64,000 nucleotides of DNA from Desulfovibrio aminophilus DSM 12254 (GTDB taxonomy: Bacteria; Desulfobacterota; Desulfovibrionia; Desulfovibrionales; Desulfovibrionaceae). The stretch covers positions 1-64,000 of the forward strand of contig NZ_AUMA01000011.1 in assembly GCF_000422565.1 (NCBI RefSeq). The letters are read 5' to 3'. Below are positions 1,499-8,703 of this stretch, in pieces; position 1 is the first letter of the stretch, and every line of letters starts with the position of its first letter. Position numbers and translations under genes: made by a program. The notes beneath the pieces were generated by a model. It was not told the origin of the DNA, ran no database searches, and saw nothing but the letters and a program-made list of their open reading frames with translations.

Positions 1499-4195
<2,697 letters not shown>

Positions 4196-4293: not shown

Positions 4294-4764
4294 TCAGGGC
4301 AGGGATGGCTCCGGCTGTCCGCCCGCGGCCAGGATTTCGGCCCGCTGTTTGAGGGCCTGGTTCATGGCCCGGTAGGCGCCCATGACCTCGGACTGGAGCA
4401 TGCGGATGAAGACAGGCACGAGCATGCCGCCGAAGGTCTCGCCGTGCACGAAGCGGGTCTTGTTGGGGCTCAGCGGTTCGACGATGAAGAAGTGTTCGAT
4501 GTCCATGAGCAGCGGCACGAGCAGGCTGCCGATCCAGCGCAATTCATAGTCCGGCTCCACCTGCACCAGGGTGGCCGTGGCCTTCATGCCGATGCCCGCG
4601 GGCGTGGTGAAGGAGAGCCGGAGCTTGCCGCCGACGCGGAGATCGCCATGGGCCTCGCGGATGAAGGGGTTCCATTCCGGGAACATGGGGAAGTCCGTGA
4701 GCACCCGCCAGACCAGGCTCGGCGCGGCGTGGATTTCGTTTTCGGTGATGAGCGCGCGGGGCAT
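4294..4764 (-). CDS. SRPBCC (START-like) family protein
   Basis: 156 aa. The ATG at 4764 is preceded by a strong AAGGAGGGGG ribosome binding site. An upstream extension of the frame to 5016 has no RBS and overlaps the neighbouring gene. The sequence begins with a classic SRPBCC first strand and helix (I-x-A-xx-V-xx-VLTDF) and a PEWNPF motif, ending in a long amphipathic C-terminal helix. This is typical of polyketide-cyclase/AHSA1-type proteins that bind hydrophobic ligands in a helix-grip fold. The ligand cannot be told. It lies 20 nt downstream of the Old Yellow Enzyme fusion on the same strand and is probably co-transcribed with it, which suggests a shared small-molecule substrate. Confidence 0.85.
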   Translation of the reverse strand: MPRALITENEIHAAPSLVWRVLTDFPMFPEWNPFIREAHGDLRVGGKLRLSFTTPAGIGMKATATLVQVEPDYELRWIGSLLVPLLMDIEHFFIVEPLSPNKTRFVHGETFGGMLVPVFIRMLQSEVMGAYRAMNQALKQRAEILAAGGQPEPSLP

Positions 4765-4784: not shown

Positions 4785-6803
4785 TCAGGCCACCAGGGTC
4801 AGGCTCTGGTTCGCGAGTCCGCGCAGAACCCCGGCCGAGACGCTGCCCAGAAGGAAACGCCGCAGGCCGCCCTGGCCCCTGCGGCCCATGATGATCTTGC
4901 CGACCCCTTCCCGCTGCGCCAGATTGAGAATGTCCCGGGCGACCCCGTTGGACCTCCGGGCCAGGAGCAAGGGCACGTCCTCGTCCAGCCCCGCCAATCC
5001 CTTGGCCTCGCTCCACCGTTTCGCGGCATCGCCGGAGCCGTTCTCCAGGATGTGCGCGAAGGTCAGACGATAATCCGGATTGCCGTAGTAGGCGTGGACC
5101 ACGTAGCGAAGGACGAGCAGCGAGGTGGGGGAAAAATCGAAGGGCACCAGGATGCGATCCTGGGCCGGGTGCGGGCCGATGAGTCCGCTGATGCCGTCAT
5201 GGGCCAGGAGCACCCGTTCGGTCCAGGCGGCTCCGGGGCCATGGCAGAGAAGGACCACTCCGAAGCCTCCGGCCTCGGCCTCGTCCAGGATGAGGTTTTC
5301 CGGTCCGCCGCGCAGGGTGCGGTCCTCGAAGCGCAACCGTCCGGGATCGAATCCGAGGCGACGCCAGGTTTCGCGGGCCCACCCTCGGAAGGAGTCCCGG
5401 GCCAGGGCGAAGGCCACGTCGCCGCCCGCCGGGTGGAGGAAGAGCAGCGTGGCCGTGAGGTCGTCCCTGGCGGGAATGCGTTCGCGCCAGTATGTCCGCA
5501 GCAGGTCCAGATCCTCTGCGGAGGTCACGGCCACCAGGGTCTTGAAGGCGTTGCGGTTGAGGAAGGAATACTCCAGGTCCACGCGCTTCTGTTGCTGCTC
5601 GGGGCGGCGCACGCAGTTGAGCCCCTTGTCCAGGACGATGCGCTTGAGACATTCGAAGCAGTCGATGCAGGCGTTCACGCGCCCGCCCTCGCGGGCCTTG
5701 CGCGGCCAGTCTCCGTCGGCCAGCAGGGGACGGCCCAGGCCGATGAGGTCGGCCTCGCCCGCGGCCAGGATGCGTTCGGCGAGGGATGGGGTGAGGATTT
5801 TTCCGGCCGCGATCACGGGGGGCTTGACCCGGACCTTGAGCGCCGCGGCGTCCTCGCGAAGGTAGCCGGGCCGCGCCGTGCGCCGCCGCACCTCGGGATG
5901 GAAGATGGAGTTGTAAGTTCCGGCTGAAACCGAGAAGTAGGACGCGCCCTCCTTCTCCAACATGGCGGCGAATTCCAGGGCTTCCGGCAGGTCCACCCCG
6001 TCCGGGGTCCATTCGCGGGTGAGCAGGCGGAAGCCCACGGGGAAATCCGGGGGCACGGCGGCCCGCACCGCCCGGAAGACTTCCAGGGGAAAGGCCGCCC
6101 GCCGGGCCAGGGGCAGGACGCCGCCGTGGGCCGGGCGGTTGGTGTAGGCCGAGAGGAACTGGGTCAGGAGATAGCCGGTCGCCCCGTGCAGCTCGACCAT
6201 CTCGAATCCGGCGGCCACGGCCCGGGCGGCGGCCCCGGCGAAGGCCCGGACCACGGCGGCGCGCTGCTCCCGCGTCATGCCCGACTGCCAGGAGGCGGCT
6301 TTGCGCATGACCATCCAGGTCAGGCCGAAACGCTCCTCCAGGGGGAAACTCTCCATGAATGCCTTCAGCGAGGCCACGTCGAAGGCCAGGTGTGAGGCGT
6401 CCATGGGCGCGGGCATGAGCGGCAGTTCGATGCGGGCGAAGCGCCCGGCGTGGTTCAACTGGGCGCAGGCCACGGCTCCGGCGTCGCGGATGATCTTGGC
6501 CAGGCGGGTCATGCCGGGCAGAAACTCATCACGGTCCAGGCGCAGGTTGTTGGGCGCGGTGACGCCGTCTCGGGCCACGGCCACGTTGCCCACCACCACC
6601 AGCCCGACGCCGCTTCCGGCCAGACGCCAATAGTGCTCCAGGAGCAGGGGGCTGACATGGCCGTCGGGATAGGCGTATCCCGTGAACAGGGGCAGCGCCA
6701 CGAGGCGGTTCTTGAGCCGCAGCCCGGCGAGCGTGAAGGGCTGGAAGAGGAGCGCCGCGCCGCCGGAAGAGGTGTCCGAAACCGTTTCGGTCATCCGCCT
6801 CAC
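4785..6803 (-). CDS. Old Yellow Enzyme-type oxidoreductase fused to tandem Usp domains
   Basis: 672 aa. Residues about 18-375 form an NADH:flavin oxidoreductase TIM barrel. Features are LKNRLVALP at the FMN entrance, QLNHAGR (115-121), ELHGATGYL (204-212), and a phosphate-binding region ending in LIGLGRPLLAD. It is followed by a CxxCxxC...C cluster (C379, C382, C385, C397), the 4Fe-4S site found in 2,4-dienoyl-CoA reductase and trimethylamine-dehydrogenase-like OYEs. In place of their C-terminal flavin domain, residues about 418-545 look like a degenerate Usp domain. Residues 549-672 are a canonical UspA domain (ILVPFDFS start, ATP-type G640-xx-G643-x9-G653-S). Start at M1 or M4 is unresolved. 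The barrel would reduce an enone or nitro compound, and the Usp part presumably senses nucleotide or stress. Confidence 0.88.
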   Translation of the reverse strand: MRRMTETVSDTSSGGAALLFQPFTLAGLRLKNRLVALPLFTGYAYPDGHVSPLLLEHYWRLAGSGVGLVVVGNVAVARDGVTAPNNLRLDRDEFLPGMTRLAKIIRDAGAVACAQLNHAGRFARIELPLMPAPMDASHLAFDVASLKAFMESFPLEERFGLTWMVMRKAASWQSGMTREQRAAVVRAFAGAAARAVAAGFEMVELHGATGYLLTQFLSAYTNRPAHGGVLPLARRAAFPLEVFRAVRAAVPPDFPVGFRLLTREWTPDGVDLPEALEFAAMLEKEGASYFSVSAGTYNSIFHPEVRRRTARPGYLREDAAALKVRVKPPVIAAGKILTPSLAERILAAGEADLIGLGRPLLADGDWPRKAREGGRVNACIDCFECLKRIVLDKGLNCVRRPEQQQKRVDLEYSFLNRNAFKTLVAVTSAEDLDLLRTYWRERIPARDDLTATLLFLHPAGGDVAFALARDSFRGWARETWRRLGFDPGRLRFEDRTLRGGPENLILDEAEAGGFGVVLLCHGPGAAWTERVLLAHDGISGLIGPHPAQDRILVPFDFSPTSLLVLRYVVHAYYGNPDYRLTFAHILENGSGDAAKRWSEAKGLAGLDEDVPLLLARRSNGVARDILNLAQREGVGKIIMGRRGQGGLRRFLLGSVSAGVLRGLANQSLTLVA

Positions 6804-6979: not shown

Positions 6980-8113
6980 ATGAGAACCGAGAGACTGCCC
7001 ACCCATTTCGCCCCGGCGGAGCGCGCCGATCGGGAGACGATCCGCAAGCAGGCGCGCGCCTTCATGGACACGCATTGCGACGCGCTCATGCACGCCGTGC
7101 CGATCATGCTCCTGGTGATCAACGGCCAGAGGCAGGCCATCTTCGCCAACGCCACCTGCCTGAATCTGTTCCGCCTCCAACTGGAGGACGCCTTGGGGCT
7201 GCGCCCCGGCGACTTGTTCGGCTGCGTCCATTCCCGGGAGACCGAAGGCGGATGCGGCACCACGGAATACTGCACCAACTGCGGCGCGGTGCGGGCCATG
7301 CTTTCCGGTCTGGCCGGGACGCGGGCCCACCAGCAATGCCGTATGCTGCGTCAGAGCGAGGGCCGCACCGAGGCCCTGGAACTGGACGTCACCGTGGACC
7401 CCTACGAGCTGTGCGGAGAGCAGTTCGCGGTGCTTTCCATAAAGGATGTGAGCGACGAGGCCCGGCGGCGGGTGTTGGAACGTCTGTTCTTCCACGACGT
7501 GCTCAACGTGGTGGGCGGGGTGCGCGGTCTGGCCGAGGTTCTGCGCGGCGAGGCCCCGGAGAATCTGAGTCGGATTTCCGGCATCCTTTTCGATTCCCTG
7601 GACTATCTGGCCGACGAGATCTTGAGCCAGAAGGATCTCATTGCCGCCGAGAACAACGAGTTGCGGTCCCGTCCGGCGGATTTGCGCGCCCTGGAGTTTC
7701 TCCTGGAGACGGGTGACGCCTTCGCCAAGGGGCCCGCCGCCAGGGGCGTGACCGTGGCCGTGGCTCCGGAGGCCAGGAATTTCGCTCTGCGTGCTGATCC
7801 CGTGCTTCTGCGGCGGGTCATCGGCAACATGATCAAGAACGCCATGGAGGCGTCCCGGCCGGGACAGACCGTGCTCCTGGGGTGTCGGGCCGAGGGCGGC
7901 GAGGGCGCCTTCTGGGTGCATAACGAGGCCGTCATGCCCCGCGAGGTGCGCCTGCAGATCTTCAACCGCTCCTTCTCCACCAAGGGTCGGGGGCGGGGCC
8001 TGGGCACCTACAGCATCCTGCTCATCACGGAACGCTATCTTCGCGGTCGGGTGGAGTTCTCCTCCCGGGAAGGCGAGGGGACCGTGTTCCGCGTCGTCTT
8101 GCCGCTGGCCTGA
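6980..8113 (+). CDS. Cytosolic PAS-domain sensor histidine kinase with Cys-rich PAS
   Basis: 377 aa, no transmembrane segment. A PAS domain spans about residues 35-158. A dimerisation/phosphoacceptor region with H172 (FFHDVLNVVGG) follows. The HATPase_c domain shows the N box (NMIKNAMEA), a short G1 region and RGRGLGTYSI. The PAS domain carries an unusual cysteine set: C82, C92, C98 and C101 in a GC-x5-C-xx-C arrangement, plus C60 and C120. This suggests metal, Fe-S or redox sensing, which is inference. No response regulator lies next to it, so its partner is elsewhere. The gene is divergent from the OYE-Usp gene across a 176-nt gap and is followed 35 nt later by an unknown gene that may share its mRNA. 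Confidence 0.85.
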   Translation: MRTERLPTHFAPAERADRETIRKQARAFMDTHCDALMHAVPIMLLVINGQRQAIFANATCLNLFRLQLEDALGLRPGDLFGCVHSRETEGGCGTTEYCTNCGAVRAMLSGLAGTRAHQQCRMLRQSEGRTEALELDVTVDPYELCGEQFAVLSIKDVSDEARRRVLERLFFHDVLNVVGGVRGLAEVLRGEAPENLSRISGILFDSLDYLADEILSQKDLIAAENNELRSRPADLRALEFLLETGDAFAKGPAARGVTVAVAPEARNFALRADPVLLRRVIGNMIKNAMEASRPGQTVLLGCRAEGGEGAFWVHNEAVMPREVRLQIFNRSFSTKGRGRGLGTYSILLITERYLRGRVEFSSREGEGTVFRVVLPLA

Positions 8114-8148: not shown

Positions 8149-8703
8149 ATGTTCGATCCCAAGGAATGCATTCTCTACAGCGGCGGCGCCGGCGGCGCCG
8201 AGGCCGAGTTCGGGGCCCAGGCCGAGCGCTACGGCCTGCAGGAGGTCCATTTCAGCTTCGAGGGCCACCAGCCCGCCCGGGCGCGCGGCCTGCGCGTGCT
8301 CACCAGCGAGGAGCTGGCGCTCAAGGACGTGAGTCTGGGCTACGTCTCCAAGCTCATGAACCGCACCTTCAGCAGCGCGCCCAAGTTCCGCGCCGTGCTG
8401 CAGAGCATCTGCTGGCAGGTGAGCAGCGGCCACGAGGTCTTCGTGGTCGGCTCCATCCTGCCCGACGGGACGGTCAAGGGCGGCACGGGCTGGGGCGCGG
8501 AGTACTCCAAAATCTGCAACAAGCCCCTGTACGTCTTCGACCAGGAGCGCAAGAACTGGTTCCAGTGGGTCGAAACGGAGTGGCGGGCCGCGGTGGACCC
8601 GATCATCGGCCACCACCACTTCACCGGCACGGGCACGCGCTTCTTGACGGGCGAGGGCCGCGAGGCCATCGTCGGGCTGTTCGCCCGCAGCTTCAGCCGC
8701 TAG
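8149..8703 (+). CDS. Uncharacterised Rossmann-like (possibly SLOG-type) protein
   Basis: 184 aa, with a GGAGG ribosome binding site 6 nt before the ATG. The N-terminus has a strand followed by a Gly-rich loop (YSGGAGGAEAEFG, about residues 10-22). The last third contains another Gly/Thr-rich segment (TGTGTRFLTGEGREAI). This resembles nucleotide-binding SLOG/YpsA-type folds in which a GG loop follows the first strand, but the match is by eye only. His-His-His (GHHHFTGTG) and several Trp residues are notable. It sits directly behind the PAS kinase and before a strong terminator, so the two genes probably form one transcript. Function is unknown. Confidence 0.7.
   Translation: MFDPKECILYSGGAGGAEAEFGAQAERYGLQEVHFSFEGHQPARARGLRVLTSEELALKDVSLGYVSKLMNRTFSSAPKFRAVLQSICWQVSSGHEVFVVGSILPDGTVKGGTGWGAEYSKICNKPLYVFDQERKNWFQWVETEWRAAVDPIIGHHHFTGTGTRFLTGEGREAIVGLFARSFSR

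Follow-up and report, generated by a model that had tools for sequence, protein, structure and literature searches.

An Old Yellow Enzyme (OYE) barrel with a [4Fe-4S]-type cysteine motif and two Usp domains are joined in a single protein of Desulfovibrio aminophilus DSM 12254, and this OYE-[4Fe-4S]-Usp-Usp arrangement is real, rare and conserved in some sulfate-reducing bacteria. It appears to be a new accessory arrangement attached to an already known family of enzymes, for which a plausible mechanism can be proposed. The window analysed here (the whole stretch of 64,000 nucleotides, positions 1 to 64,000 of contig NZ_AUMA01000011.1) carries the gene on its minus strand at positions 4785-6803, as an open reading frame of 672 aa when read from a GTG start and of 669 aa when read from an ATG 3 codons further (6792-6794). 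Residues are numbered from the ATG unless the GTG is stated.

In a Pfam scan, the 672-aa protein matches Oxidored_FMN over residues 19-373 (E 4.6e-53) and Usp over residues 549-661 (E 7.4e-13, 49.7 bits against a cut-off of 24), with no further family at E <= 0.1, no Pyr_redox match and no flavin-binding family on the Usp tail. A preliminary description of this DNA had put forward the domain order OYE-Usp-Usp and suggested a search with PF00724 and PF00582. Both families are matched, PF00582 for the second Usp domain only, and the Pfam matches to Oxidored_FMN and Usp, along with the AlphaFold2 topology, bear the order out. The cut-off of no NCBIfam model is reached, the best being mycofactocin OYE 2 (185 bits against 793), and bili_reduct_N scores 159 bits against a cut-off of 425. 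The protein is the sole Oxidored_FMN match in the source genome and one of its 13 Usp matches.

The AlphaFold2 model, built from a 19-sequence alignment (pLDDT 88.2, pTM 0.85), consists of an OYE (FMN) TIM barrel at residues 14-375 (5670..6755), the cluster motif at 376-394 (5613..5669), a linker helix at 399-412 (5559..5600) and two alpha/beta domains at 416-540 (Usp1, 5172..5549) and 546-668 (Usp2, 4788..5159), all on the minus strand. Both alpha/beta domains show the strand-helix alternation of Usp proteins, and no flavin/NAD domain is seen in the model. The possibility that residues 418-672 (from the GTG) form an ordinary flavin domain, for which the preliminary description had called for structure prediction, is rejected, the predicted topology being that of Usp. 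Within the tail, only residues 642-645, which belong to the Usp2 nucleotide motif, fall under pLDDT 50. An insert at residues 136-167 (6294..6389, minus strand), recognised by length comparison and restricted to the fusion lineage, is modelled as two helices (136-148 and 152-167). When the model was compared with solved structures by VIA, 2-naphthoyl-CoA reductase (Z 49.1, 359 residues, 2.2 A, over residues 12-408) and 2,4-dienoyl-CoA reductase (FadH; Z 46.1, 355 residues, 2.6 A) were matched. The best 50 matches listed fall on the barrel (residues 11-402) and include no Usp or ETF chain; as barrel matches filled the list, the tail is hardly probed by this comparison. The Pfam match, the model and the VIA matches all identify an FMN-type TIM barrel of the OYE family (PF00724).

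Four cysteines follow the barrel in a C-x2-C-x2-C-x11-C motif of [4Fe-4S] type, C376, C379, C382 and C394 (379, 382, 385 and 397 from the GTG, as the preliminary description had numbered them), and all four are invariant in the 19 aligned homologues from which conservation was counted. They correspond to the four cysteines of the three-domain [4Fe-4S] OYE proteins of the FadH/NCR/TMADH type, while the C-terminal FAD and NAD(P)-type domains of these proteins are absent. A dinucleotide-motif pattern, sought over a stretch of about 80 residues where the barrel match ends, was present in all eight three-domain proteins and in none of the 21 Usp proteins, in two of which the barrel match ran on so that the stretch tested lay further down. 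Within the barrel, H115, H203, Y208, R256 and R355 are each invariant (19/19). The substrate motif of OYE proteins is H-x-x-[HN]. Its last position, three residues after H203, is occupied by N in 10, S in 6 and T in 3 of the 19 sequences, the window protein having T, and this variation suggests that the active site may differ from that of a standard ene-reductase.

The two Usp domains differ in their motifs. The nucleotide-binding motif G-2X-G-9X-G-[ST] is present in Usp2 in 18/18 sequences (G-2X-G-9X-G-S at 4842..4886, minus strand), as is H581, and absent from Usp1 in 19/19; one sequence fewer contributes to the Usp2 columns. Residues 546-668 thus belong to PF00582 both by family match and by motif. 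Residues 416-540 give no Pfam match over the curated cut-off, and their likeness to Usp lies in their topology and in a weak profile match: hhalign aligns Usp1 with Usp2 at E 6.5e-5 (probability 64%, 45 columns) and with free Usps at E 0.0016 (probability 16%), against E 0.44 and 0.43 for two unrelated controls. With an HMM of Usp1, the Usp domain of a related protein from genome G129, described below, is found at E 1.5e-4 and a single free Usp at 0.0067; the following match is at 1.9, and the remaining free Usps are missed. Usp1 is therefore probably a degenerate Usp domain, on a profile signal that is weak but above the controls and on the modelled topology. The pairing of a degenerate with an intact Usp domain, proposed in the preliminary description, agrees with these counts. 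Its label "ATP-type UspA" is loose, E. coli UspA being without an ATP-binding site (PMC3673472). The motif by itself is no proof of ATP binding, since ATP is bound by some Usps whose motif is degenerate, and others with a good motif have been solved empty (PMC3673472).

Both Usp domains occur in one open frame in 22 proteins (L036-L053, the window protein, G002, L110 and L111), with two more cut at contig ends (L054 and L112); L036 and L037 are near-identical, so that the number of distinct species is somewhat below 22. Full-length matches, none with an internal stop, were found in 5 of 59 near genomes (the source genome included), in 6 of 348 genomes of the same order and in 3 of 85 genomes of another order of the phylum, where one of the three matches runs into the end of its contig. 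An even sample of 395 genomes of the phylum gave the full form in the window genome alone, and a one-Usp form in G129. In the 348- and 395-genome searches, scoring covered the best three candidates per genome. Exact matches to two peptide patterns among 84,980 species (one genome each) gave 28 related loci: 18 with both Usp domains (L036-L053, one without its N-terminus at a contig start), the truncated L054, a protein without the tail in Desulfocicer vacuolatum (L055) and eight OYE proteins without Usp. The hosts are mostly Desulfovibrionaceae and Desulfobacterales, the named hits including Desulfobacterales MAGs; L043, L041 and L037 are labelled only as Proteobacteria, a proteobacterium and a candidate phylum, respectively. 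The fusion is thus rare and patchy, and the architecture count suggested in the preliminary description shows that it is not common. A viral origin is rejected: 16 stretches of viral_contigs matched a pattern, and none encodes a relative.

Since the same architecture recurs across many genomes, a fusion created by frameshift, assembly error or chance is also rejected. Each domain moreover has dN/dS below 1, with the lowest values in the barrel and cluster motif: by a simple counting method, OYE, Usp1 and Usp2 give 0.16, 0.18 and 0.21 between the window and G002, and 0.28, 0.42 and 0.50 between the window and L036.

Two variant forms bear on how the fusion arose. In G129, a genome of another family, L104:8704-11624 encodes, together with an overlapping FAD-protein gene, a barrel with an insert and one canonical Usp domain (541 aa from the ATG). 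In D. vacuolatum, L055:7959-9218 encodes the OYE/four-cysteine part with the insert and ends after the linker; none of the three forward frames further downstream shows a Usp remnant, and nothing in the locus matches the Usp2 profile. The tail therefore seems dispensable at least in this species, which keeps the same OYE/four-cysteine part without Usp domains.

We placed these proteins in a tree of 85 OYE domains, from which 12 loci repeating others were omitted and whose rows, drawn by similarity to the query, are a non-random sample of OYE proteins. A clade of 57 rows emerges with support 100/99, made up of 34 short OYE/four-cysteine proteins, the D. vacuolatum protein without a tail and 22 Usp-bearing proteins (including L054, cut after Usp1). 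Outside it lie all eight three-domain (FAD) proteins and the short four-cysteine rows L015 and L028. Within the clade, 21 Usp proteins and the D. vacuolatum protein cluster together (100/100), with the short row L009 beside them on weak support (94/72). The one-Usp protein of G129 groups with short proteins (98/84), yet a single fusion clade including it is compatible with the data (AU test, p 0.296), so that one or two origins of the fusion could be envisaged. All 23 rows of the fusion lineage, one of them readable only in part, share an insert of about 32 residues that the other 62 lack. The stretch around it measures 44 residues in 21 of the 23, 43 in G129, whose letters are unlike the 44 of the main clade, and 27 in one row that contains unknown bases. 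In the remaining 62 rows its length is 8-21, and in the 36 short four-cysteine proteins 12-16. These 36 rows match over about 370-380 residues, with at most 14 residues beyond the match, and the first cysteine spacing is mostly x3 in the short proteins and x2 in the fusions.

As the fusion lies inside a clade with 34 short proteins while the three-domain proteins lie elsewhere, it is more likely that the Usp pair was added to a form already without an FAD domain, and a simple swap of the FAD domain for the Usp pair is rejected by the tree. The preliminary description had placed the Usp domains "in place of" the usual flavin/NAD domain; the absence of that domain is confirmed, but replacement is doubtful as history, given the tree and the 34 short members of the clade. 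FAD-less OYE/four-cysteine proteins ending just after the cysteines are widespread in Desulfobacterota (L074-L101, L056-L060).

In the window, the fusion gene is followed 20 bp downstream, on the same strand, by an SRPBCC gene (Polyketide_cyc2, Pfam E 3.7e-12; 4294..4764, minus strand), a probable operon partner to judge from the gene order. Of the 7 Desulfovibrio-type loci, 5 (window, L032, L036, L037 and L047) have such a gene on the same strand at a distance of 4-22 bp downstream; none was found beside the fusion in L039 and L040. The next same-strand gene encodes a P-type cation ATPase (1499..4195, minus strand) and the divergent gene on the other side a histidine kinase (6980..8113, plus strand); both are Pfam assignments that recur in L032, L036 and L037 and are given as context only. 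Positions 8149-8703 encode a protein of 184 aa that no Pfam or NCBIfam family matches at E 0.1; the same three loci hold relatives of it. No electron-carrier family is seen among the neighbours in the window by Pfam scan, and a promoter and terminator scan found nothing. Elsewhere, an SDR gene lies nearby in L044, L046, L051 and L053, and 4 of the 12 Desulfobacterales-type loci (L042, L046, L048 and L050) have free Usp genes, single or multiple, no further than about 3 kb from the fusion.

A second neighbour is an FAD protein of about 680 aa (L041:7802-9853 and alike), whose gene is adjacent and convergent in 7 of the 12 Desulfobacterales-type loci that extend 2.5 kb or more downstream, as well as in L055, beside the tail-less gene. 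In G129, the OYE-Usp gene and a gene for a 432-aa FAD protein share 4 bp (L104); an ORF just upstream there resembles a transposase by eye. The FAD protein shows remote likeness to geranylgeranyl reductases, far under their cut-offs, and its top 50 Foldseek matches are mainly flavoproteins of FAD monooxygenase and oxidase type. Its C-terminal region is conserved and gives no Pfam family over the cut-off. In a poor predicted structure (pLDDT 62.5) the strand and helix order of this region resembles the helix-grip (SRPBCC) fold, and an hhalign comparison with SRPBCC is not significant (E 0.24, probability under 1%). Searches for the gene gave no match in the window genome, G001, G002 and G029, and likewise none in nine of another 13 genomes; all nine carry the fusion, and many of these genomes are incomplete MAGs. 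Relatives occur in 24 of the 395 phylum genomes, of which only G129 was a fusion carrier in the phylum search (best three candidates per genome), and in two genomes where the fusion lies apart or is absent, the neighbours of the FAD gene suggest no pathway by eye. The link between this gene and the fusion is therefore only partial, the gene being missing from several fusion genomes and its relatives occurring without the fusion.

The reading that we consider best, and hold tentatively, is that of an externally fed FMN/[4Fe-4S] OYE reductase in which the nucleotide-binding Usp tail modulates activity or docking. We infer the occupancy of the FMN and cluster sites, the external donor and ATP binding. 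The enzyme would be an FMN/[4Fe-4S] OYE reductase without an NAD(P)H/FAD domain of its own. In the absence of an FAD domain, electrons would have to come either directly from NAD(P)H or from a separate carrier through the cluster, and the conservation of the cysteines favours the latter. An external input is also suggested by the 34 of 57 clade rows that have the four cysteines and neither an FAD nor a Usp part. A separate ferredoxin- or flavodoxin-like donor could thus give single electrons to the cluster and from there to FMN, which would pass a hydride to an unsaturated substrate, probably a hydrophobic one, and so reduce it; the substrate class is a guess. The hypothesis of the preliminary description that electrons are delivered without a second flavin would fit this anatomy, with short BilR and its partner BilS as a precedent (PMC10769871). 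The tail would act as a one-chain pseudo-dimer, Usp1 serving as a scaffold that has lost its nucleotide site and Usp2 presumably binding ATP or AMP and altering enzyme activity or partner docking with the energy state of the cell, in a direction that we can only guess. Nucleotide-dependent control or docking is favoured by the likeness of the tail to tandem Usps with a C-terminal nucleotide site (PMC3673472, PMC4750201), and the ATP- or stress-dependent control of a flavin reductase put forward in the preliminary description is likewise a hypothesis.

A more specific version, which we regard as doubtful, is a nucleotide-gated flavoenzyme in which the Usp pair reads ATP or AMP and, by way of the insert, opens or closes the active site or the access of the donor to the cluster. 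If true, an anaerobic ene- or aryl-type reductase would be switched by energy charge within one polypeptide, and a Usp would have a defined biochemical output. The tail could instead be a docking or substrate-presenting part similar to UspE, bringing a hydrophobic ligand or a partner (SRPBCC or FAD protein) to the barrel. The SRPBCC gene directly downstream in five of seven Desulfovibrio-type loci (two of them the near-identical L036 and L037), the FAD-protein gene overlapping in G129 and convergent in 7 of 12 Desulfobacterales-type loci and L055, and the hydrophobic pocket of UspE, which holds an unidentified ligand (PMC4750201), are consistent with such a role. It nevertheless seems unlikely, as no FAD gene was seen in the window genome, G001, G002 and G029 or in nine fusion-carrying genomes out of 13 others, its relatives coincide with the fusion in just one (G129) of 24 phylum genomes, and the SRPBCC likeness of its C-terminus is non-significant.

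It is improbable that the protein is a sensor, with the flavin/[4Fe-4S] barrel reading the redox state, the Usp pair as output and reduction chemistry of minor importance. The altered H-x-x-[TSN] motif and the divergent histidine kinase gene (window, L032, L036 and L037) would suit a sensor, but H203, Y208, H115 and R256 are invariant, the lowest dN/dS is in the barrel and cluster motif, and D. vacuolatum keeps the barrel without the tail, the opposite of what is expected for an output domain. ETF domains belong to the same wider fold class as Usp, and the tail could be an electron-transfer module of this kind or itself bind flavin. It follows the cluster directly, at the place taken by the FAD domains in naphthoyl-CoA reductase and FadH (PMC6502838). 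The classical Usp nucleotide motif in Usp2 and the lack of any flavin-binding family match on the tail make this very improbable. We give practically no credence to an artefact, whether two genes joined by frameshift or assembly or an ordinary flavin domain at residues 418-672, in view of the 22 proteins with both Usp domains in one frame, the predicted Usp topology and the dinucleotide pattern (8/8 three-domain against 0/21 Usp proteins).

The biochemical role of Usps is a long-standing question, with little known of their specific function (PMC12159084), and a Usp pair hard-wired to an assayable enzyme would allow direct tests of nucleotide control by Usp. Beyond this protein, attention is drawn to the larger set of FAD-less OYE/four-cysteine reductases in Desulfobacterota, which would need an external electron donor.

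The best structural matches, 2-naphthoyl-CoA reductase and FadH, belong to the [4Fe-4S] OYE subclass and share with the fusion an FMN barrel that leads into a four-cysteine cluster region. They continue with FAD/NAD(P)H-type domains after the cluster (PMC6502838), whereas the fusion has two Usp domains and the insert; in naphthoyl-CoA reductase, electrons pass from FAD to the cluster and on to FMN (PMC6502838). The FAD-less proteins of Desulfobacterota share the barrel, the four cysteines and the clade (100/99) with the fusion, but have no Usp tail, no insert (12-16 against 44 residues) and mostly an x3 first spacing. Short BilR, a bilirubin reductase, is likewise an OYE barrel without extra C-terminal domains and is accompanied by the flavodoxin-like BilS, its probable electron donor according to the authors (PMC10769871); it belongs to another OYE group than the fusion (bili_reduct_N, 159 against 425 bits) and has no Usp.

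Among the literature matches listed, from a corpus with subscription journals mostly outside it, no description of an OYE or flavin oxidoreductase joined to Usp was found, in agreement with the statement of the preliminary description that it knew of no protein with this order. Usp is likewise an added domain in the known fusions with kinases, transporters, permeases, KdpD and CBS, and the list of such fusions in PMC3673472 (legend of figure 2) includes no oxidoreductase. Among the literature matches, the nearest case in print is a methanogen Usp linked by automatic annotation to a protochlorophyllide-reductase-type domain (PMC12159084), a redox-enzyme-type domain but not an OYE barrel. The tail itself is of the tandem (UspE) type, with two Usp domains and the nucleotide motif in the second only. 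In PA1789, a single chain pairs a degenerate Usp at the N-terminus with one of nucleotide type at the C-terminus (PMC3673472), and E. coli UspE, for which ATPase activity has been shown, has its ATP motif in the C-terminal domain (PMC4750201). UspE and PA1789 are stand-alone tandem Usps, whereas the pair in the window is fused behind a flavoenzyme.
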